Shown: piece after piece, positions 2,864 through 41,128 of the stretch
How positions within the stretch are numbered: the stretch's first letter is position 1
How the letters are laid out: every line of letters begins with the position of its first letter
From: Streptomyces sp. NBC_01237
GTDB lineage: Bacteria > Actinomycetota > Actinomycetes > Streptomycetales > Streptomycetaceae
Direction: 5' to 3'
DNA: 64,000 nucleotides
Assembly: GCF_035917275.1 (NCBI RefSeq)
Contig: NZ_CP108508.1
Span: 2,232,001-2,296,000, forward strand
Notes under the pieces: generated by a model
Database searches by the model: none
Seen by the model: the letters and a program-made list of their open reading frames with translations, nothing else
What the model was told of the DNA's origin: nothing
Translations under genes and position numbers: made by a program

Positions 2864-3340
2864 CCGACAATCAAGGGCACACCTCACCCACCCGGCACTT
2901 AGGGACACCCCCACCCGGCACTTGAGGACACGCCCACCCCGCCCCGCACCCCAACCCGCCCGGCACTTGCGGACGCATCCCAGCCCGTCCCGCACCCCAA
3001 CGCGCCCGGCGCTTGAGGACACATCCCAGCCCGTCCCGCGCCCTCGCCCCGCCCGGCACTTGAGCGCGCATTTCAGCCGGATTGGCTCCCCCACCCTGCC
3101 CCTCGCCTGAGCGCGCATTTCACCCCGCCCCGCACCCCAAGCCCGCCCCGCACCTGGCCCCACCTCCAAGCCCATCCCGCACCCCAGCCCCGCCCGGCAC
3201 TTGAGGGCGCCCATTTCAGCCCGATTGGCTCCCCCACCCCGCCCCACACCCCCAGCCCGCCCGGCGATTGAGGGCGCTTTTCAGCCCGTCCGGCGATTGA
3301 GGACCGGGGCCTGGGGCAGCGCCCCAGTTTCGGGAAGGGG
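2864..3340. repeat. Degenerate array of Streptomyces intergenic repeats
   Basis: The 720-base ileS-divIVA spacer holds no convincing gene. It contains about eight imperfect copies of CCCGCCCGGCACTTGAGG or CCCGTCCGGCGATTGAGG (for example near 2891, 2914, 2955, 3001, 3051, 3191, 3255 and 3281). Several are separated by CATTTCAGCC-GATTGGCTCCC or CAGCCCGTCCCGCACCCC links. The last copy continues into a longer element with a CTGGGGC-AGC-GCCCCAG hairpin at 3311-3327 and a GGGGCGGGTAGGGG tract. The CCGTCCGGCG-TTGAGGAC element is, as I recall, a common dispersed intergenic repeat in Streptomyces. The bases from 3341 to 3437 are C-rich simple sequence. Confidence 0.75.
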
Positions 3341-16242: not shown

Positions 16243-17982
16243 TCATCCCTGACTGTTGTTCTCGTGGTGAGGGGCGCGGTCCGTGACGCTCGGGGGTGCG
16301 TCGTCGGCGCGTGCACGCCCCAGGGACCGTTCGATGGCTGCGTGCAGGACGAGGCGGTCGTCGAAGGGGCGTACCACCCCGTGGATGTCCTGGCCCTGTT
16401 CGTGTCCCTTGCCCGCGACGAGGACGGTGTCGCCGGGCTCGGCGCGGGCGACCGCGGCGGCGATGGCCGCGGCGCGGTCGGCGTCGACCAGGACGTCACC
16501 GCGTTCGTGGACGGGCACCTCGGCGGCGCCCGAGAGCATCGCGGCGAGGATCGCGAGGGGGTCCTCGGAACGGGGGTTGTCCGAGGTCAGTACGGCCGTG
16601 TCGGCGAGACGGGCCGCCGCGGCGCCCATCGGGCCGCGCTTGGTCGTGTCGCGGTCGCCGCCGCAGCCGAGCACGATGTGCACCCGGCCCTCGGTGACCT
16701 TCTGCAGCGAGCGCAGGACCGATTCGACGGCGTCGGTCTTGTGCGCGTAGTCGACGACCGCGAGGTAGGGCTGTCCCGCGTCCACCCGCTCCAGCCGGCC
16801 CGGGACACCGGGGACGGCCGCGATGCCGTCGGCGGCGGTCTGCGGGTCGACCCCCGCGACGGCCAGGGTGACGATGGCGGCGAGGGTGTTGGCGACGTTG
16901 AACGGGCCGGGCAGCGGGGCCTGGGCGGCGATCCGCTCACCCTGCGGGCCCACGGCCGTGAAGGTGCTGTCCTGCGGGCCGACTTCGACGTCCTCGGCGT
17001 GCCAGTCGGCGTCCGGGTGGCCCTCGGCGGAGAAGGTGACGACGGGTACGGTCGCCTCCTCGATCAGCCTGCGGCCGTACTCGTCGTCGAAGTTCACGAC
17101 TCCCCGCCGGCTGCGCTGCGGAGTGAACAGCTGCGCCTTGGCCTGGAAGTAGTCCTCCATGCCGGTGTGGAACTCCATGTGTTCCGGGCTGAGGTTGTTG
17201 AAGACGGCGACGTCGAAGACGCAGCCGTCGACCCGCCCGAGCACCAGGGCGTGGCTGGAGACCTCCATGGCGACCGCCTCGACGCCGCGTTCGCGCATGA
17301 CGGCGAACAGGGCCTGGAGGTCGGTGGCTTCGGGCGTGGTGCGCTCGGACTTGATGCGCTCGTCGCCGATCCGCATCTCGACGGTGCCGATCAGCCCGGT
17401 GCTGCGTCCGGCGCCGCGCAGTCCGCCTTCGACCAGATACGCGGTGGTGGTCTTGCCGGACGTACCGGTGATGCCGATCTGGAGCAGGCCGACGCCCGGC
17501 CGCCCGTAGATCTCGGCGGCTAGCTCGCCCATCCGGCCGCGCGGGTCCTCGGTGACCAGCACCGGAAGTCCGGTGGCGGCGGCGCGCTCGGCGCCCGCCG
17601 GGTCGGTGAGGACCGCGGTGGCACCGAGCCCGGCGGCCTGGGCGGCGAAGTCGGCGCCGTGGAAGCGGGCGCCGGGCAGGGCCGCGTACACATCGCCCGG
17701 CCGTACCGCGCGCGAGTCGTGGGTGATGCCCGTGACCTCGCCGGTTCGCGGTGCTTCGACCTGGAGCCGGGCTGCCAGCTCGCCGAGGGAAGTGGGCCGG
17801 AGCCGGTCCGGTCGGGGCGCTCCCGGATAGGTCACAGGCGCGTCCTTCTGGGTGGTTTGGGACTGATCAGCGTGGGGCACGGCGGTGAGCGTACCGGGCT
17901 GACCCGGCCTCTCGCGAAGCGAGGGACCCGGGTTGCGGTAGTTCTCGTTCCGGTTCCCGGGATCGGGGGTGATGGTTGTCAC
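16243..17982 (-). CDS. murE: UDP-MurNAc-dipeptide:diaminopimelate ligase MurE
   Basis: Mur ligase (579 aa) that adds diaminopimelate, LL-type in Streptomyces, to UDP-MurNAc-Ala-Glu. Motifs: THDSRAVRPGDVYAALPG, GITGTSGKTTTAYLV, TTPEATDLQALFAVM, EVSSHALVLGRVDG, FNNLSPEHMEFHTGMEDY, and DNPRSEDP, the diaminopimelate-recognition DNPR signature. About 75 extra N-terminal residues are low-complexity (PDPGNRNENYRNPGPSLRE) and probably disordered. The GTG at 17982 has GAGGGA at 8 nt spacing; a GTG further in (VPHADQSQTT) is a possible alternative. It lies 37 bases after ftsI. Confidence 0.94.
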   Translation of the reverse strand: MTTITPDPGNRNENYRNPGPSLRERPGQPGTLTAVPHADQSQTTQKDAPVTYPGAPRPDRLRPTSLGELAARLQVEAPRTGEVTGITHDSRAVRPGDVYAALPGARFHGADFAAQAAGLGATAVLTDPAGAERAAATGLPVLVTEDPRGRMGELAAEIYGRPGVGLLQIGITGTSGKTTTAYLVEGGLRGAGRSTGLIGTVEMRIGDERIKSERTTPEATDLQALFAVMRERGVEAVAMEVSSHALVLGRVDGCVFDVAVFNNLSPEHMEFHTGMEDYFQAKAQLFTPQRSRRGVVNFDDEYGRRLIEEATVPVVTFSAEGHPDADWHAEDVEVGPQDSTFTAVGPQGERIAAQAPLPGPFNVANTLAAIVTLAVAGVDPQTAADGIAAVPGVPGRLERVDAGQPYLAVVDYAHKTDAVESVLRSLQKVTEGRVHIVLGCGGDRDTTKRGPMGAAAARLADTAVLTSDNPRSEDPLAILAAMLSGAAEVPVHERGDVLVDADRAAAIAAAVARAEPGDTVLVAGKGHEQGQDIHGVVRPFDDRLVLHAAIERSLGRARADDAPPSVTDRAPHHENNSQG

Positions 17983-18019
17983 TGGGGCTTCCCTCGGGGC
18001 GTGCTCGCGCACCCCCTTG

Positions 18020-20026
18020 TCACTCGCCGGGCTTGAAGGACACCGGCAGCCGGGCGGGCTCGCTGCCGGACGGTGGGGTCTGGAGCGTCTTCAGCGCGAA
18101 CTCCATGACCTGCTTGTAGATCGGTCCGCAGATCTGGCCGCCGAAGTAGCTGCCACTGGTCGGGTTCTGGATCGCGCAGTAGACGGTGATCTGTGGATTG
18201 TCGGCGGGCGCGAATCCCGCGAAGGAGGCCGTGTAGCCCTTGTAGACACCACGTACCGGGTCGACGCGGTTGGCCGTACCGGTCTTGCCCGCGACCCGGT
18301 AGCCGGGGATCTTGGCCTTGGTCCCGGTACCTTCCTCGTTGCCGACGACGGACTCCAGCATGGACGCCAGTGTCTTGGCGGTCTTCGTGCTGACCACCCG
18401 GCTCCGCTCGGGGTCCGGGGCCGCGGTGTAGCGGCCGTCGGAGCCCTTGGTGCCGCGTACGAGGCTGGGGGCGACCCGGACCCCGTCGTTGGCGATCGTG
18501 GAGTAGACCGACGCGGCCTGTACGGCGTTGAGCGAGAGGCCCTGGCCGAACGGGATCGTGTACTGCTGCGAGGTCGACCAGTCCTGCGGCTCGGCGAGGA
18601 TGCCGGGTGACTCGCCCGGGTAGTCGAGCCCGGTCTTGCTGCCGAGCCCGAACTTGCGCAGGTAGGAGTGCAGGACCTTGTTGGACTCGGCCTGGGTCTT
18701 GCCGAGCTGTCCGGTGGCCAGGATGGTGCCGATGTTGCTGGACTTGGCCAGTACGCCGTTGAGCGTCAGGTACCAGGTGGGGTGGTCGATGTCGTCCTTG
18801 AAGAGCCGGTCGCCGCGGTGCAGCCGGTTGGGCACGGTGACGTGTGTGCCGGGCGTGGCGGCACCCTCCTCCAGCACGGCGGCCATGGACATGACCTTGC
18901 TGGTGGAGCCGGGTTCGTACACGTCCTGGAGGGCCGCGTTGCCCAGGGCCGCCCCGTTGACCTGCGAGAGGTCGTTCGGGTCGTAGCCGGGGGCGTTGGC
19001 CATGGCCAGCAGTTCGCCGGTCTTCGTGTTCTGCACGATCACATAGCCGCGGTCGGCCTTGGACTTCTTGACCTGGTCGGCGATGGCCCGCTGGGCGGCC
19101 CACTGGATGTCCCGGTCGATGGTCAGCTCGATGTCGGAGCCGGACACGGCCGGGATCTCCCGGGCACCCGCGGTGGGCACCCTGCGGCCGCCGGACTGGG
19201 CGTACCTGATCTTGCCGTCCTCGCCCGCGAGCTGTTTGTTCAGCTGCGATTCGAGTCCGCCGCCGCCCTTGCCGTCGGCGCTGACGAAGCCCAGTATCCC
19301 GGCGGCGAGGTCGCCGTTGGGGTAGACCCGCTTGGTGGTGGGCTCCTGGAGGACACCGGCGAGCACGTTGGCCCCCGGGCCGCCGCCGGCCTTGTCCTTG
19401 GCGGCCTTCTCCGCGAAGACGGACTTGAGGTCCTTGATCTGCTTCCAGACCTGCGGGGTCTGCCGGCGGGCCAGGACGGTGTAGCGGCTCTTGGGCGTCG
19501 ACAGCTTCTTGGTCAGCTCCTCGACGTCCTTGCCGAGGATGGGCGCGAGGAGGGCCGCCGCCTGCTGCGGCGCGTCGGCGGCCTTGCTGTCCTCGGGCGT
19601 GAACATCTTGGGGTCGGCGGTGATGTCGTGCGCGTCCACGCTGGTGGCCAGGGCGATGCCCCTGCGGTCGGTGATCTCGCCGCGCTCGGCGGCCACCGTG
19701 TACTCCAGGTAGCGGTTCTCGTCGGCCTTGGCCGCGTACGCACTGGCGTCGACGGCCTGGACCTGGAGCAGCCGGGCCACGAAGACCAGCATGACGACCG
19801 TCAGGCCGAGGCCGACCAGGCGCAGCCGGGGGCGGGGACTGCCCAGACGCAGCGTGCGCCGGGCACGGTTGCGATCGGCCTTGGTGCCCGGCCGCCGGGG
19901 AGCGGGGCGCGGGCGTCCGCCCTCGGGACGCACGGTGGACCGGGGGCGGCCGGAGCCGCCCGCTCCGTTCATGCGCGGGCGCGTGGGGCCGGGTACGCGG
20001 CGGCGCGGCGGTTCCTTGGGCGGCAC
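18020..20026 (-). CDS. ftsI: Septal penicillin-binding protein FtsI (class B transpeptidase)
   Basis: Class B PBP (668 aa) that cross-links septal peptidoglycan and pairs with FtsW. A basic, Pro-rich cytoplasmic tail of about 68 residues precedes one membrane anchor (LVGLGLTVVMLVFVARLLQV). The pedestal region starts RGEITDRRGIALATSVDAHDI. Transpeptidase motifs are EPGSTSK (nucleophile Ser near residue 374), AKSSNIG and VAGKTGTAN. The GTG start at 20026 has AGGTG upstream and lies just after the ftsL stop. No PASTA domains are present. Confidence 0.95.
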   Translation of the reverse strand: MPPKEPPRRRVPGPTRPRMNGAGGSGRPRSTVRPEGGRPRPAPRRPGTKADRNRARRTLRLGSPRPRLRLVGLGLTVVMLVFVARLLQVQAVDASAYAAKADENRYLEYTVAAERGEITDRRGIALATSVDAHDITADPKMFTPEDSKAADAPQQAAALLAPILGKDVEELTKKLSTPKSRYTVLARRQTPQVWKQIKDLKSVFAEKAAKDKAGGGPGANVLAGVLQEPTTKRVYPNGDLAAGILGFVSADGKGGGGLESQLNKQLAGEDGKIRYAQSGGRRVPTAGAREIPAVSGSDIELTIDRDIQWAAQRAIADQVKKSKADRGYVIVQNTKTGELLAMANAPGYDPNDLSQVNGAALGNAALQDVYEPGSTSKVMSMAAVLEEGAATPGTHVTVPNRLHRGDRLFKDDIDHPTWYLTLNGVLAKSSNIGTILATGQLGKTQAESNKVLHSYLRKFGLGSKTGLDYPGESPGILAEPQDWSTSQQYTIPFGQGLSLNAVQAASVYSTIANDGVRVAPSLVRGTKGSDGRYTAAPDPERSRVVSTKTAKTLASMLESVVGNEEGTGTKAKIPGYRVAGKTGTANRVDPVRGVYKGYTASFAGFAPADNPQITVYCAIQNPTSGSYFGGQICGPIYKQVMEFALKTLQTPPSGSEPARLPVSFKPGE

Positions 20027-20030
20027 TGCG

Positions 20031-20672
20031 TCACCTGCCGGGGCTCGTCGTGGGCGGGGTCGCCGCGGTGCGCGGCGGCACGGTCTCTGCTGCGGGGTCG
20101 GCGGGCCCGGCGGGCGCCTCGCGGGTTGTTCCGGTGGCGCCGCTCGCCAGGCCCCCGGGGGCTTCGGGGGCGGCGGGCGTGGGGCCGGCGGCCTCGGAGG
20201 CGTCGGGGGTGGGCGTGGCGCCCGGTGACGTGCCGTCCGAGGGCGCGGCCGGGACGGTGGGCTCGCTGGTCTCGGGCTCCGGCTCCGGGGTGGGGGACGG
20301 CTCGGTGGTGACCTCCGCGGGCACCCCGCGGACCGTACCGTCCGGGTCGAGGAAGGCGGGGCTGCCGCCGGGCACCATGCCGAGTTCCCGGGCGCGGCGC
20401 TCCAGCGCGTCGGGCTGGGAGTATCCGTCGACGTCCCGCTGGAGGGCCTGCTGCTCGTCCGTGAGCTCGGTGGTCTCCTTCTTGAGCTCGCTCAGCCTGA
20501 ACGATCCTTCGTTCAGTGCGGAGTTCAGCAGGAGAAGGCCGATGAGCCCGCCGCCCAGGAGCAGGACGACCAGCAGGACGAAGGGGGTGCGGGCCGCGTT
20601 GGTGGGCCCCGACGGCATCAGCCGGGCGAGCCGTCCGGCCCGCCCTTTCAACTGCGCGGCCGACTTGCTCAC
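20031..20672 (-). CDS. ftsL: FtsL-like divisome membrane protein
   Basis: Bitopic protein (213 aa) in the ftsL position between rsmH and ftsI. It has a short basic cytoplasmic N-terminus, one membrane segment (FVLLVVLLLGGGLIGLLLL), then a heptad-like stretch (LKKETTELTDEQQALQRDVDGYSQPDALERRARELGMVPG) typical of FtsL/DivIC. A Pro/Thr/Glu/Ala-rich tail of about 90 residues follows and is probably disordered and extracytoplasmic. The GTG at 20672 overlaps the stop of a 50-codon upstream frame as GTGA. The frame of ftsL is open further upstream, but that part is a shadow of the repeat smORF. Identification rests on position and topology, since FtsL sequence is poorly conserved. Confidence 0.85.
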   Translation of the reverse strand: MSKSAAQLKGRAGRLARLMPSGPTNAARTPFVLLVVLLLGGGLIGLLLLNSALNEGSFRLSELKKETTELTDEQQALQRDVDGYSQPDALERRARELGMVPGGSPAFLDPDGTVRGVPAEVTTEPSPTPEPEPETSEPTVPAAPSDGTSPGATPTPDASEAAGPTPAAPEAPGGLASGATGTTREAPAGPADPAAETVPPRTAATPPTTSPGR

Positions 20673-20821
20673 CGCATCGCCCCTGCCGCCTCGGCCGTCA
20701 CGCCGGTCACCGCCCCGCTCGCCGCACCCGTCACCGTCTCGGACGTCCGGCCGGTCACCGCATCGGACCTCCGGCCCGTCACGGCACCGGTCGCCGCCTC
20801 CGACGCTCCGGGAGCGCTCAT
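20669..20821 (-). CDS. 50-aa repeat-containing smORF between rsmH and ftsL (hypothetical)
   Basis: A 50-codon frame exactly bridges two dcw genes. Its ATG overlaps the rsmH stop as ATGA, preceded by GAGGAGGAGCG, the best Shine-Dalgarno in the area, and its TGA overlaps the ftsL GTG as GTGA. The product starts [12 protein letters not shown] and then has four imperfect octapeptides: [32 protein letters not shown], followed by AAGAMR. No membrane segment or known domain is seen. It could be a real small protein, or a translated coupler that carries ribosomes from rsmH to ftsL. I do not recognise a family. Confidence 0.6.
20690..20785 (-). repeat. Four imperfect 24-bp tandem repeats
   Basis: On the minus strand four 24-base units, each beginning G/A-C-G/C-GTGAC-G/C-GG, fill 96 bases. 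They encode the four octapeptides of the small frame above. The unit length is a multiple of three, so copy-number change would keep the frame. Confidence 0.75.
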
Positions 20822-21783
20822 CGCTCCTCCTCGCGGATGCGCTGGGCACCGCGCAGCCGGGCGGGGGCGGCGCGCCGGTTCTCGGCGACCTCCTCCTCGG
20901 TGGGCAGCTCCGCGCCCCGGGTGAGCAGCTTCAGCCGGGGCTGGTAGCGCTCGGGGACGACGGGCAGCCCGGGGGGCGCCGTGTTGGCGGCGCCGGCCGC
21001 GAAGACCTGCTTGACCAGCCGGTCCTCCAGCGAGTGGTAGGACAGGACCGCGATGCGGCCACCGACCGCGAGGCTCCGTACGGCGGCCGGGATGGCCCGC
21101 TCCAGGACGGTGAGTTCGCCGTTGACCTCGATGCGCAGGGCCTGGAAGGTGCGCTTGGCCGGGTTTCCCCCGGTGCGCTTGGCGGCCTGCGGCAGGGAGT
21201 CGCGGATCAGCTCGACGAGCCTGGCGCTGTTGCTGAACGGCTCCTTCTCGCGCTCGCGCACTACGGCGGAGACGATCCGCTTGGCCTGCTTCTCCTCGCC
21301 GTACGCGCGCAGGATCCGGACGAGTTCGCCCGGCGGGTAGGTGTTGAGCACCTCGGCGGCGCCGATGCCGGTCGTCTGGTCCATGCGCATGTCGAGCGGG
21401 GCGTCCTGGGCGTACGCGAACCCGCGGTCGGCCTCGTCCAACTGCATGGAGGAGACGCCGAGGTCGAACAGGATGCCCTGGACCTTGGGGACGCCCAGCC
21501 GGGCGAGCACCTCGGGGAGCTCGTCGTAGACGGCGTGCACCAGAGTGGCCCGGTCGCCGTACGGGGCGAGCCGTTCACCCGAGAGCCGCAGCGCTTCCTT
21601 GTCCCGGTCCAGGGCGATCAGCCGGGCGGTGGGGAAGGCGGAGAGCAGGGCCTCGCTGTGGCCACCGAGGCCGAGGGTGCAGTCGACGACCACCGGCGCC
21701 CCGGTGCTCGGGGTTTCCAGAGCCGGGGCCAACAGGTCCAGACACCGCTGGAGCATCACCGGGACATGTCGGGTCTGGCTCAA
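20818..21783 (-). CDS. rsmH: 16S rRNA (cytosine-1402-N4)-methyltransferase RsmH (MraW)
   Basis: SAM-dependent methyltransferase (321 aa) acting on C1402 of 16S rRNA. It begins [20 protein letters not shown] and has the motif I region [79 protein letters not shown] and [16 protein letters not shown]. The start at 21783 is a TTG preceded by GAGAGGG; the next in-frame ATG lies within the conserved N-terminus, so TTG is preferred. It is the first gene of the dcw transcript here; mraZ, usual upstream of it in other bacteria, is missing. Confidence 0.95.
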
Positions 21784-22208
21784 AGCGCCCTCTCAGGCTC
21801 AGTCCCGTGCGGCAGCGCGTGCGTCCTGGTCCCCGCCCGCCCTGAAGGGGAGGTCCGCCGGCGCCGGGGAAGGGGCGTCGGCCGACCGAGAGCGGGAGAG
21901 GGCCGGGCCGCACGTAACACCGCACAGCACGGGGAAAAACGGAACGTACGACATCTGTATCTATGGAATGCGCGATATGTGCGGGGTGTGTCGGTAACTT
22001 CGCGTCACTTTAGTCCACCCTGCCATTCGATCGATTCCCGATCAACGAACCGGGCAGCGCGTCGGCCCGCCGCCGGCACACCCCGGAGCTCACCCGACCG
22101 GGCGCATCTCCATGAGGCTTGTGGGTTACCTCACAACAAGCCTCGTTGACGTTCTTTGTCCACTCTCACAGCAGGCTTCGTCCAGCTGGGAGAGCTAACG
22201 TCATCTTC
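21784..22208. promoter_or_regulatory. Divergent promoter region, rsmH / carbonic anhydrase
   Basis: A 425-base gene-free region. It holds GTAAC-TTCGC-GTCAC at 21994-22008, a near-inverted repeat resembling BldD-type boxes (low certainty). A second inverted repeat, GAGGCTTG (22114-22121) / CAAGCCTC (22137-22144), has a 15-nt spacer. A TAACGT box at 22196-22201 lies 7 nt before the carbonic anhydrase ATG. The central part (about 21930-22030) is markedly more A/T-rich than its surroundings, as expected for a promoter of the division operon. Confidence 0.45.
22196..22201 (+). promoter_or_regulatory. -10 box for probable leaderless carbonic anhydrase mRNA
   Basis: TAACGT ends 7 nt before the ATG at 22209, and there is no properly spaced ribosome-binding site (GGGAGAG is 13 or more nt away). 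This arrangement predicts transcription starting at or next to the start codon. No clear -35 box is seen. Confidence 0.4.
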
Positions 22209-37622: not shown

Positions 37623-38540
37623 TCACGACTGCTTGTGCAGTCCGAGATTCTCGTAGATTTCGAGCGTTGCCGTCGAGTTGTTGAGCGTGATGAAGTGAAG
37701 TCCGGGCACACCTTCGGACAGCAGCTTCGCGCAGAACTTCGTTGCGAACTCGATGCCAATGGAGCGTACAGCGGCTGGATCGTCCTTGACGGCGAGGATG
37801 CGTTCTTTCAACGAAGCGGGGAGGGTCGCGTTGCTGAGCTGCGCAAATCTTTCCAACTGTTTCACGCTGGTGAGGGGCATGACCTCGGGAATGATCGGGG
37901 TGTCGCAACCCGCCGCGACCACGCGGTCACGCATCCGGAGATAGTCATCCGGATTGAAGAACATCTGAGTGATCGCATAATCGGCTCCGGCGCGGCACTT
38001 GTCCACGAAATGCCCGATGTCGGTCTCCCAGTCGGACGACCGCGGGTGCATTTCGGGAAAGGCGGCGACGCCGACACAGAAGTCGCCGGATTCCTTGATG
38101 AGCCGGACGAGGTCGGCGGCGTACCGCACGCCCTGCGTGTGCTCGACCCACTCGCCCATCGGGTCGCCGGGCGGGTCGCCCCGCACCGCGAGGATGTTCC
38201 TGATTCCGGCGTCGGCGTACTGCCCGACCATGTTGCGCAGTTCCGCGACGGAGTGGTTGACCGCGGTGAGGTGGGCGACCGGGGTGAGCGTGGAGTCGGC
38301 GGCGATCTGCTGCGTCGCCCTGACCGTCCCGGAGCGCGTGGAGCCGCCGGCGCCGTACGTCACCGAGACGAAGCTCGGGCGCACCGCCTCGACCCGGCGC
38401 AGCGCGTTCCAGAGGTTCCGCTCACCCTTCTCGGTCTTGGGCGCCCAGAATTCGAAGGAATACGAGGTCGTGCCGGTCGCGAGCAGGTCACGCACGGTGC
38501 GTGCACGGTCTGTCCTGGTGGAAGGTGTGCCAAGGGCCAT
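37623..38540 (-). CDS. metF: Methylenetetrahydrofolate reductase MetF
   Basis: FAD enzyme (305 aa) reducing 5,10-methylene-THF to 5-methyl-THF for methionine synthesis. TIM-barrel motifs: [95 protein letters not shown] and [20 protein letters not shown]. The promoter is unusually clear and suggests a leaderless message. There is no SAM or cobalamin riboswitch upstream. Confidence 0.95.
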
Positions 38541-38546
38541 ACCGTG

Positions 38547-38575
38547 AGGTTAACCAGGGCTCGGCGGTCGCCCAA
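38547..38575 (-). promoter_or_regulatory. metF promoter, leaderless geometry
   Basis: On the minus strand TTGGGC (38570-38575) and TAACCT (38547-38552) are 17 bases apart, and the ATG follows 6 nt after the -10. No Shine-Dalgarno is present, so transcription probably begins at the start codon. Confidence 0.55.
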
Positions 38576-38617
38576 CCGGGCCGGCGTTTTTTGTCTGGAA
38601 TGGCCTGATTGTTGTCC

Positions 38618-38711
38618 ACCCCTCGGACATCACGCGTGCGTGGCCTTCGAACATCACTCGGCCGTGCCTCCGCGAACATCACGCGGGCAGGCCCCCTCGG
38701 GCATCCCTCGG
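38618..38711. repeat. Four imperfect ~25-bp repeats
   Basis: Cores of the type CG-A/G-ACATCACGCGG recur with a 24-25-base period (near 38625, 38649, 38674 and 38699) in the gap between the thiE stop and the metF promoter. They are not perfect palindromes. Function unknown. Confidence 0.55.
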
Positions 38712-39371
38712 TCATGCCCCTCGGACGGAGCGTGCCCGCACCCGTCGGGCGAGTGCGGCGGCGGCCGCGGCCGGGTCGGCGGCCTCGGTGATCGCGCGGA
38801 CGACGACGACCCTGCGGGCTCCCGCGTCCAGCACCTCGTCCAGATTGCCCTCGTCGATCCCGCCGATGGCGAACCAGGGGCGCGGCTGGTCGAGCGAGGC
38901 GGCGTAGCGCACGAGCCCGAGCCCGGGGGCGTGCCGGCCGGGCTTGGTGGGGGTGGGCCAGCAGGGGCCGGTGCAGAAGTAGTCCACGCCCGCCTCGGCG
39001 ACGGCCGCGTCGACCTCGGCCTCGGCATGCGTGGAGCGGCCGGTCAGCACGTCCGCGCCGATGATCGCGCGAGCGGCGGGCACCGGCAGGTCGCCCTGGC
39101 CCAGGTGCAGCACGTCCGCACCGATGGCATGGGCGACATCGGCGCGGTCGTTCACGGCGAGGAGCCTGCCGTGGCGCTTGCAGGCGTCGGCGAACACGGC
39201 GAGGTGTTCCAGCTCCTCCGCCGCCTCCATGCCCTTGTCCCGCAGCTGGACGATGTCCACACCGGCCCGGAGCACGGCGTCGAGGAACGCGGGGAGGTCG
39301 CCCTGTCGCCTGCGGGCGTCCGTGCACAGATAGAGCCGGGCGTCGGACAGCAGCTCGCGAGGCGTGGGCAT
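38712..39371 (-). CDS. thiE: Thiamine-phosphate synthase ThiE
   Basis: TIM-barrel enzyme (219 aa) that joins HMP-PP and thiazole phosphate to thiamine monophosphate. Motifs: [87 protein letters not shown], and the phosphate loop [28 protein letters not shown]. The ATG at 39371 has GGGGGAAA ahead. It lies on the opposite strand from, and 2.3 kb away from, the thiOSG operon that makes its thiazole substrate. No TPP riboswitch is seen before thiE itself. Confidence 0.95.
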
Positions 39372-39447: not shown

Positions 39448-39813
39448 TCAGACGGCGAGCGCCTGGGCGCGGCGCTTCACCTCCGTACCGCGATTCTCAC
39501 TCAGAGCCTGCGCGGGGGTGCCCGGCAGGGTCGGGTCGGGAGTGAAGAGCCAGTCCAGCATCTCCTGGTCGGAGAAGCCGTCGTCCCTCAGGAGCGTCAG
39601 GGTCCCCGCGAGGCCCTTGACGACCTTGTCGCCGTCGATGAAGGCGGCAGGCACCTGGAGGGTCCGGTTCTCACCGCGTCGTACGGCGATGAGCTGGCCT
39701 TCCTTGACCAGCTGCCGCACCCGCGTCACCTGGATGTCGAGCAGTTCCGCGATGTCGGGAAGGTGGAGCCAGGCAGGTACTAGAGCATCGATCTTTGCGT
39801 CAATCTCGGTCAC
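39448..39813 (-). CDS. Rv2175c family DNA-binding protein
   Basis: A 121-aa winged-helix-type protein. [49 protein letters not shown] is the MerR-like DNA-binding part. The C-terminal half ([33 protein letters not shown]) is the Rv2175c-specific helical part. In M. tuberculosis Rv2175c is phosphorylated by the adjacent kinase PknL, which switches off DNA binding. Here a serine/threonine kinase lies 4.3 kb away on the other side of the thiamine genes. The start is a GTG with no good ribosome-binding site. Confidence 0.88.
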
Positions 39814-39883
39814 GAGGACAAGCGTGCCATCTGGGACCGACAGCCGGAAGCCGGGCCCGACCGTACGGGGGTCGGGCCGCGTC

Positions 39884-41128
39884 TCACAGAGCCGTCGACT
39901 TCAGCGGTACGGAGGGGTCCGCCACCCGCGCCGGGTCGAGTGCCGCCCCCGATTCGATGAGCTTGCGCCCCTGCGCCAGATCCCGGGGACGGCCCACGGC
40001 GAGGACCGCCACGAGCGCGTTGTCCCGCAGCCAGCACACCGACCAGGCGGGATCGGCCGGGTCACCGCGCCACAGGAGGTCGTCGGCATGGGCGTGGTGG
40101 CCCGCGTACTGCACGAAGCGGCCGAACTGCTCGGACCAGAAGTACGGCACGGGGTCGTACACGCCGGGGCGGCCGTCCCCGTCGAGTGCGGCGATGTCCG
40201 CGGCGACGGTCCGGGGGCCCTGGAGGGCGTTGTCCCAGTGGTGGACCAGCAGGCGTGCGCCGTAGCGGGCGGACGGGAAGGAGGCGCAGTCGCCGACCGC
40301 GTACACATCGGGCAGCGAGGTGCGCAGCGCGCTGTCGGCGGTGACCGAGCCGTCCGGGCCGAGCGCGATGCCGGAGCCGGCCAGCCAGCCGGTGGAGGGC
40401 CGGGCGCCGATCCCGACGACCACCGCACCGGCCGGGAGCACCCGGCCGTCCGCCAGGGTCACGGCGCCCGGTTCGACGCGGGAGACCCGGGCGCCGGTGA
40501 GGAGTTCGGCGCCGCTCTCGGCGTACCAGTCGGCCATGGGGGCGGCGACCTCGGCGGGCAGGGCGCCGGCGAGGGGGCGTTCGGCGGCCTCGACGACGGT
40601 GACCGCGCAGCCCGCGGTGCGGGCCGCGGTGGCGAACTCGGCGCCGATCCATCCCGCCCCGACGACCACCACGTCGTGCTGCCGTTCCAGGACGGGCCGC
40701 AGCCGGGCGGCGTCGTCGAGGGTGCGCAGCAGATGCACGCCGGGCACGCCCTCGGAGCCGGGCAGCCGAACGGGTTCGGCCCCGGTGGCGATGACCAGGG
40801 CGTCGTACGGAACGGGGCCGTCCGGTGTGTCCAGTTCATGGGCGCCGGGGCGCAGGCCGCTCACGTCCACTCCCAGGCGCAGGGTGATGTCCAGCGCCTC
40901 GAAGTCGATGTCGAAGGCGGAGTCCTCGGCCTTGCCGAGCAGGACGGCCTTGGACAGCGGTGGCCGGTCGTAGGGCTGGTGCGGTTCGGCGCCGATCAGG
41001 ACCACCGGTCCGGTGAAGCCGCGTTCGCGCAGGGCGACGGCGGTCTGCACGCCCGCCATGCCCGCTCCGACGATCACGACACGGCGCGCCGACTGCCGCG
41101 CTGACTGTTGTTCCGTCTGCTCGCTCAC
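39884..41128 (-). CDS. NAD(P)/FAD-dependent reductase (ferredoxin reductase type)
   Basis: A 414-aa flavoprotein with two dinucleotide folds: VVIVGAGMAGVQTAVALRERGF (FAD) and VVVVGAGWIGAEFATAARTAG (NAD). PYDRPPLSKAVLL, ATGAEPVRLPG and YAVGDCASFPS are typical of rubredoxin or ferredoxin reductases of oxygenase systems. The C-terminal domain holds VPYFWSEQFGRFVQYAG, as in reductases with the extra C-terminal fold. No ferredoxin or oxygenase gene adjoins it. The GTG at 41128 is 6 nt after a TATGGT box. The frame runs open for 631 codons upstream, but that is a shadow antisense to thiO and thiS. Confidence 0.88.
   Translation of the reverse strand: MSEQTEQQSARQSARRVVIVGAGMAGVQTAVALRERGFTGPVVLIGAEPHQPYDRPPLSKAVLLGKAEDSAFDIDFEALDITLRLGVDVSGLRPGAHELDTPDGPVPYDALVIATGAEPVRLPGSEGVPGVHLLRTLDDAARLRPVLERQHDVVVVGAGWIGAEFATAARTAGCAVTVVEAAERPLAGALPAEVAAPMADWYAESGAELLTGARVSRVEPGAVTLADGRVLPAGAVVVGIGARPSTGWLAGSGIALGPDGSVTADSALRTSLPDVYAVGDCASFPSARYGARLLVHHWDNALQGPRTVAADIAALDGDGRPGVYDPVPYFWSEQFGRFVQYAGHHAHADDLLWRGDPADPAWSVCWLRDNALVAVLAVGRPRDLAQGRKLIESGAALDPARVADPSVPLKSTAL

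Follow-up and report, generated by a model that had tools for sequence, protein, structure and literature searches.

The leader ORF tap of plasmid R1 repA is a short ORF that has to be translated for ribosomes to reach the next start codon. It would resemble in this respect the ORF described below, although tap is a regulated plasmid leader and not a spacer between structural genes. The MIRU elements of mycobacteria are another inserted element of interest here, and their original description is said to be that of Supply et al. in 1997. In mycobacterial coupled small ORFs, RTGA overlaps the downstream start and the linkage but not the peptide is sometimes conserved; according to that study, ribosome delivery is independent of the peptide sequence (Shell et al. 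2015, PMC4633059). Both ribosome delivery by short ORFs and MIRU insertions with −4 coupling are described in a 2025 review (PMC12548453). Adjacent genes may also be coupled directly. With a gap of 38 nt, two of the E. coli pairs assayed by Huber et al. (2023, PMC10666635) lost 80–90% of their reinitiation and another lost all of it; one Haloferax pair lost all of it at 22 nt. The commonest overlaps in that work were −4, −1 and −8.

The window, i.e. the entire 64,000-nt stretch of DNA that was analysed, corresponds to 2.23–2.30 Mb of its contig in a 10.19-Mb genome. The relatives for which names were available belong to Streptomyces; one of these records bears the label [Kitasatospora] papulosa. 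A 145-bp spacer between rsmH and ftsL is filled by a 50-codon ORF, which we refer to as the relay ORF. The features of this locus are as follows.

18020..20026, minus strand: ftsI, the next gene of the operon (Pfam PF00905, E 1e-73)
20031..20672, minus strand: ftsL, the downstream gene (PF04977 DivIC, E 7e-7, 29.4 bits with a cut-off of 28.9, and position between rsmH and ftsI)
20669..20672, minus strand: GTGA, 4-nt overlap of the ftsL start with the relay stop (relay TGA 20671-20669, ftsL GTG 20672-20670)
20669..20821, minus strand: relay ORF, 50 codons, ATG start, TGA stop (ORF list and comparison with relatives)
20680..20684, minus strand: AGGGG, weaker Shine-Dalgarno-like site for ftsL within the relay ORF (best duplex upstream of ftsL, −8.0 kcal/mol)
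20686..20782, minus strand: 24-bp tandem array of 4 units coding for four octapeptides (Tandem Repeats Finder)
20818..20821, minus strand: ATGA, 4-nt overlap of the relay start with the rsmH stop (ATG 20821-20819, rsmH TGA 20820-20818)
20818..21783, minus strand: rsmH (mraW), the upstream gene (Pfam PF01795, E 7e-110)
20826..20832, minus strand: GAGGAGG, Shine-Dalgarno site for the relay start within the rsmH end (4 nt before the ATG; duplex −11.7 kcal/mol)

Duplex energies are for pairing with the anti-Shine-Dalgarno tail. The elements from which the sequence-only reading had started, i.e. the ATGA and GTGA overlaps at the two ends, the GAGGAGG site and the four 24-bp units with their octapeptides, were all found on the minus strand as it had described. 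Tandem Repeats Finder reported a period of 24, 4.0 copies, a 72% match and no indels, and a second check of the register gave unit spacings of 24, 24 and 24. A noncoding RNA was rejected, as no Rfam match reached the gathering score in 19900-21900. RNA structure prediction for the window's sequence at the ftsL start gave no signal either (z −0.39).

The relay ORF falls within the definition of a coupled small ORF used for mycobacteria (5–50 codons, with a TGA overlapping a downstream RTGA start; Shell et al. 2015), and like those ORFs it is short, its end meeting the next start in RTGA. The mycobacterial ORFs whose enrichment was tested in that study (PMC4633059) start where leaderless transcripts start, whereas the relay start sits on the rsmH stop, which speaks against a leaderless origin. 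The relay also differs in lying between two genes, in being coupled upstream as well, and in having a spacer that changed length, became chained or was lost. The likeness to MIRUs consists of an inserted repeat whose ORF is coupled to its neighbour gene by a −4 overlap, which the window ORF has at both ends, so that the insertion would do little harm. MIRUs are repetitive and apparently mobile according to the review (PMC12548453), whereas spacers at the rsmH–ftsL junction differ between species and the 145-bp spacer matches one place rather than several, with no second copy elsewhere in the 10.19-Mb genome; the 24-bp unit by itself was searched within the window. The pairs of Huber et al. (PMC10666635) share with this locus the −4, −1 and −8 overlaps and a steep loss of coupling with distance, but they consist of two genes joined directly and no relay ORF is mentioned in the passages considered, whereas rsmH–ftsL has one. 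Titles and abstract starts of the literature matches listed contained no description of a relay between rsmH and ftsL, most subscription papers lying outside this scope. Judged from sequence comparison, the relay belongs to the known class of coupled short ORFs but has what appears to be a new form: placed between structural genes, coupled at both ends, repeatedly gained or lost, sometimes chained and with an apparently free peptide.

The sequence-only reading had argued that the fit at both ends is hard to explain by chance. A simple script based on codon usage was used to call genes in the window and in a further 800 kb of its genome (864 kb in total), and the null consisted of random small deletions in spacers. 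Among the 251 junctions between co-directional genes with 10–250 nt between them, 8 had the double 4-nt geometry, and 6.6 ± 2.0 were expected. One of the eight is the ftsI–murE junction two genes downstream. By itself the geometry is thus no proof, and the argument from fit was insufficient within one genome; it gained force once relatives were compared. A genome-wide relay rule was rejected on the same counts.

The sample was made up of 80 named loci and of further loci from genomes of the window's genus. We kept 157 loci, leaving out 12 outgroup loci (L145-L156), duplicates, L126 and L139, for which the script gave no start, and L183, whose start was unclear. L113 and L163 were reset by hand to direct overlap and the L185 start to +133, and for the remaining loci a script chose, among the in-frame starts, the one closest to the aligned ftsL start. 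rsmH and ftsL overlapped directly (GTGA or ATGA) in 66 of the 157 loci, and a spacer of 13–322 nt was present in 91. The survey null deleted 0–2 random bases from each spacer in 200 rounds. Overlaps of 4 nt alone bridged 75 of the 91 spacers (68 by a single ORF and 7 by ORF chains), compared with 31.7 ± 4.6 and a maximum of 44 in the null. When overlaps of 1, 4 and 8 nt were allowed, 86 spacers were bridged (78 by a single ORF and 8 by chains; null 37.7 ± 4.4), the 8-nt class having been added only after its appearance in the data; since the rows are related, both simulation counts overstate independence. Five of the 91 spacers contained no relay by this looser rule (L047, L093, L095, L110 and L165). 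Counted per genome, 91 were drawn, of which 4 had no ftsL match and 1 weak match was set aside; among the other 86, a relay was found in 44, direct overlap in 35 and neither in 4, with 3 unclear. Single ORFs with 4-nt overlaps spanned 6–109 codons, some exceeding 50. Single relay frames of exceptional length were present in the spacers of L064 (107 codons) and L135 (109 codons).

An ATG or GTG was present on the rsmH stop in 89 spacer loci. The frame opened by this codon ended exactly at the ftsL start in 77 loci and stopped early in 11, compared with about 2 to 1 in the nulls. It overshot the ftsL start in 1 of 89 loci vs 51–53% in the nulls. Early stops (11 of 89 vs about 16% in the nulls) showed no clear depletion. 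Chaining after an early stop was not above the null (8 of 11 vs 51%, P = 0.12), and chains were rejected as independent evidence on this basis. Outside the genus, 12 of 32 genomes were examined. An in-frame RTGA start was present on the rsmH stop in 7 of the 12 outgroup loci (L147, L148, L149, L150, L151, L153 and L155), several of which also have other possible ftsL starts, and was absent in 5. This distribution is consistent with direct overlap at rsmH–ftsL being the older arrangement, and direct overlap may be ancestral.

A tree of rsmH and ftsL was built from 158 rows by a quick method without bootstraps, in which 44 of 155 inner branches were open. The window's clade comprised 52 rows with SH-aLRT support of 100. 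A relay was present in 50 of these rows, with every gap length equal to 1 modulo 3; in the other two, the sister rows L041 and L060, the spacer has been lost and rsmH overlaps ftsL directly. Parsimony assigned 15 length changes to the clade. Fourteen fell among the 50 relay rows and were all multiples of 3, and the fifteenth, leading to L041 and L060, has a size not divisible by 3 and restores the direct overlap. Frameshifts or lost overlaps in close relatives, the outcomes that the sequence-only reading had named as speaking against it, were thus both absent from the 50 spacer-bearing clade loci. Over all 157 rows the direct or spacer state changed at least 14 times, indicating that spacers were gained or lost repeatedly.

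The ftsI–murE junction of the same loci was used as a control. It was kept for 91 of 158 loci, the rest being short of ftsI or murE, and in some loci the ftsI stop offers a further in-frame candidate for the murE start. Relay geometry with 4-nt overlaps was found there in 25 of 91 loci vs 22.6 ± 3.8 under the null used for rsmH–ftsL. Both junctions were covered in 34 clade loci; among these, ftsI–murE underwent 10 length changes with 9 changes of modulo-3 class, compared with 10 length changes and 1 class change, the L041 direct overlap, at rsmH–ftsL (Fisher P = 0.001); these parsimony events were counted on one quick tree and are not fully independent. In the window, ftsI–murE contains a frame of 14 codons that begins and ends in a GTGA overlap (17979-18023, minus strand), which is likely to be a chance frame because relatives do not preserve it. 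ftsI–murE was rejected as a second relay for this reason. The ftsL–ftsI junction was not useful as a control, its gap being mostly 4 or 5 nt.

The last codon of rsmH was CGA in 40 and CGG in 10 of the 50 clade relay loci, which gives ATGA or GTGA. Elsewhere in rsmH of those loci CGA makes up 4.6% of the Arg codons, and third-position C in clade rsmH is 57%. The synonymous CGC, the commonest Arg codon, would destroy the start and was found in none of the 50. Over all 91 spacers the codon overlapping the rsmH stop was ATG in 48, GTG in 41 and absent in 2, L103 and L165, in which rsmH ends in TAG. Strong Shine-Dalgarno sites for ftsL itself (−11.1 to −12.2 kcal/mol) were present in all five spacers that lack a relay, and ftsL sites were stronger in no-relay than in single-relay loci (P = 0.005), a contrast that is partly a clade effect because relay loci of the 27-row clade containing L095 and L110 also have strong ftsL sites (median −9.9). 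The ftsL site in relay loci was stronger than in shuffled spacers (−9.4 vs −5.9 kcal/mol); ftsL thus keeps its own site in relay loci and may also start independently. RNA structure at the ftsL start did not distinguish relay loci from shuffled spacers (0.40 vs 0.39; 40 of 86 relay loci).

Codon positions were compared in 22 same-length pairs in which the spacer difference was above 0 and at most 0.45 and the rsmH difference below 0.10, each locus being used once. Differences at codon positions 1, 2 and 3 numbered 68, 33 and 437 in 13,200 bases of rsmH and 68, 51 and 274 in 6,600 bases of ftsL. The corresponding numbers for the relay ORF were 59, 85 and 54 in 960 bases, a pattern without a sign of purifying selection on the peptide. 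GC content at the three positions was 0.73, 0.85 and 0.89 in the relay ORF vs 0.73, 0.50 and 0.94 in ftsL, and the clade's relay peptides consist mostly of Gly, Arg, Ala, Thr, Pro and Ser. A protein search of 739 candidates returned one match at E <= 1, of 42 residues and identical except for one missing 8-residue unit, and no Pfam match above the cut-off was obtained for the relay peptide. Overall, the relay peptide looks free of sequence constraint. We also considered an N-terminal extension of FtsL through the spacer. This candidate was rejected, as an alternative in-frame ATG, GTG or TTG between the preceding stop and the ftsL start is missing from 62 of the 91 spacer loci, and from 38 of the 50 in the window's clade, and such an extension cannot be general; the window itself has an alternative in-frame ftsL start in the spacer.

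With start, stop and frame kept and the peptide apparently free to change, the frame is likely to be a peptide-independent termination-reinitiation relay that keeps rsmH–ftsL coupling across the insertion, and most likely not a conserved small protein. The sequence-only reading had offered both a small protein and a relay. Persistence of the frame and overlaps while length and sequence change supports the second, whereas the lack of constraint, the range of 6–109 codons and the absence of a family tell against the first. A small division-associated protein with octapeptide repeats would account for the ATG, the strong Shine-Dalgarno site and an open frame that is preserved, yet the three codon positions change at similar rates, lengths vary from 6 to 109 codons, the only homologue at E <= 1 among 739 candidates stands alone with no Pfam match above the cut-off, and the 66 direct-overlap loci have no spacer and hence no such frame. 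We consider such a protein very improbable. Chance would operate through GC-rich spacers that are open in most frames and through RTGA being common. It is adequate for the window genome (8 of 251 junctions vs 6.6) and for ftsI–murE, where the window also has the geometry and 25 of 91 loci compare with 22.6 expected. It does not explain 75 of 91 vs 31.7 at rsmH–ftsL or 14 of 14 in-frame length changes among the clade relay rows, and the matched ftsI–murE control, which follows no frame rule, argues against chance in the clade, provided that the tree is not seriously in error; the probability of chance is very low.

Avoidance of interference is an alternative of another sort. Here the old start would stay because its strong Shine-Dalgarno site lies in the coding end of rsmH, and the frame would end at or before the ftsL start without delivering ribosomes. 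Since ribosomes must not read out of frame into ftsL, this explanation accounts for the near absence of overshoot (1 of 89 loci; 51–53% in the nulls), of which most of the frame signal consists, and accommodates premature stops near the null rate (11 of 89 vs about 16%). Early stops would be rare anyway within the clade (6–8% in the nulls), so that the 50 exact endings in 50 loci there do not discriminate. However, a synonymous CGC would remove the start at once and occurred in 0 of 50 clade loci, in 40 of which the rare CGA supplies an ATG. The 77 to 11 ratio of exact to early endings, about 2 to 1 in the nulls, and the stronger ftsL Shine-Dalgarno sites of no-relay spacers relative to single-relay loci also disagree with avoidance. 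What chiefly favours ribosome delivery is that a rare codon keeps the start in place. Avoidance of out-of-frame reading explains part of the frame signal; as the whole explanation it is unlikely.

The termination-reinitiation relay that we favour would work as follows. In much of Streptomyces and in 7 of the 12 outgroup loci, ftsL could start inside the rsmH stop (RTGA), and ribosomes ending rsmH would reinitiate at this overlapping start. The junction would then have gained DNA, both in the window's clade and repeatedly in other parts of the genus; tandem duplication would have supplied it in some lineages, and we infer that the direction was from direct overlap to spacer. The start at the rsmH stop, retained with its GAGGAGG-like site, would now open a short frame ending exactly at the displaced ftsL start, converting one long gap into two short overlaps. 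Ribosomes would translate this frame and reinitiate at ftsL, the peptide itself having no role, and loss of coupling would be expected to lower FtsL. Because coupling is lost with distance in reporter assays, most rsmH–ftsL spacers should break it, whereas a relay ORF provides two short overlaps. Judging from the comparison, Streptomyces may rely on coupling to rsmH for its FtsL supply. A bolder proposal, which we put forward tentatively and hold to be possible but doubtful, is that the junction is selected for unbroken ribosome passage such that gained DNA must become a translated conveyor. Relays would in that case have arisen repeatedly, and tandem duplications could provide the material for them, either leaving the frame intact or contributing a further link, with link number and length tuning the FtsL:RsmH ratio between species. 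A ribosome profiling dataset exists for S. griseus (PRJNA575265, genome NC_010572, as given in PMC8914203); going by L024 and L020, two loci with that species label, its relay would be 14 or 18 codons long. Many bacterial short ORFs lack a conserved sequence and are hard to judge; the relatives examined here separate constraint on frame, start and stop from constraint on the product. A working test for other operons would combine indels that keep the frame, overlaps retained at start and stop, three codon positions that change at similar rates, and a neighbouring junction as control.

Changes of copy number in multiples of 24 had been predicted for the repeat, and this was borne out in both copies seen. 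P0001 has one 24-bp unit fewer than the window ORF, and the spacer of G019, a genome with the same species label, is 48 bp shorter, i.e. two units fewer. Other spacers at the rsmH–ftsL junction contain repeats of different lengths. That of L088 is an array of 30-bp units that takes in the rsmH end with its Shine-Dalgarno site. L098 has 33-bp units, among which a decayed copy of the ftsL Shine-Dalgarno and start region is recognisable at 88%. The L099 spacer contains an exact 32-bp duplication; its unit holds GTGA in a phase such that duplication adds one chain link rather than a break (one case). Tandem periods are not always multiples of 3, as shown by 32 in L099 and by 16 and 17 in L102.

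Further frames and repeats were observed elsewhere in the window. A 25-codon frame with GTGA at both ends lies between co-directional genes with a gap of 70 (39810-39887, minus strand). A 216-nt spacer (38496-38724, minus strand) has imperfect 24–25-bp tandem repeats at its upstream end (38619-38724) and a 75-codon frame with 8-nt overlap geometry; the gene after it presumably encodes a protein resembling methylenetetrahydrofolate reductase. An imperfect, C-rich tandem array of about 7 copies of 46–47 bp is located at 2909-3244.
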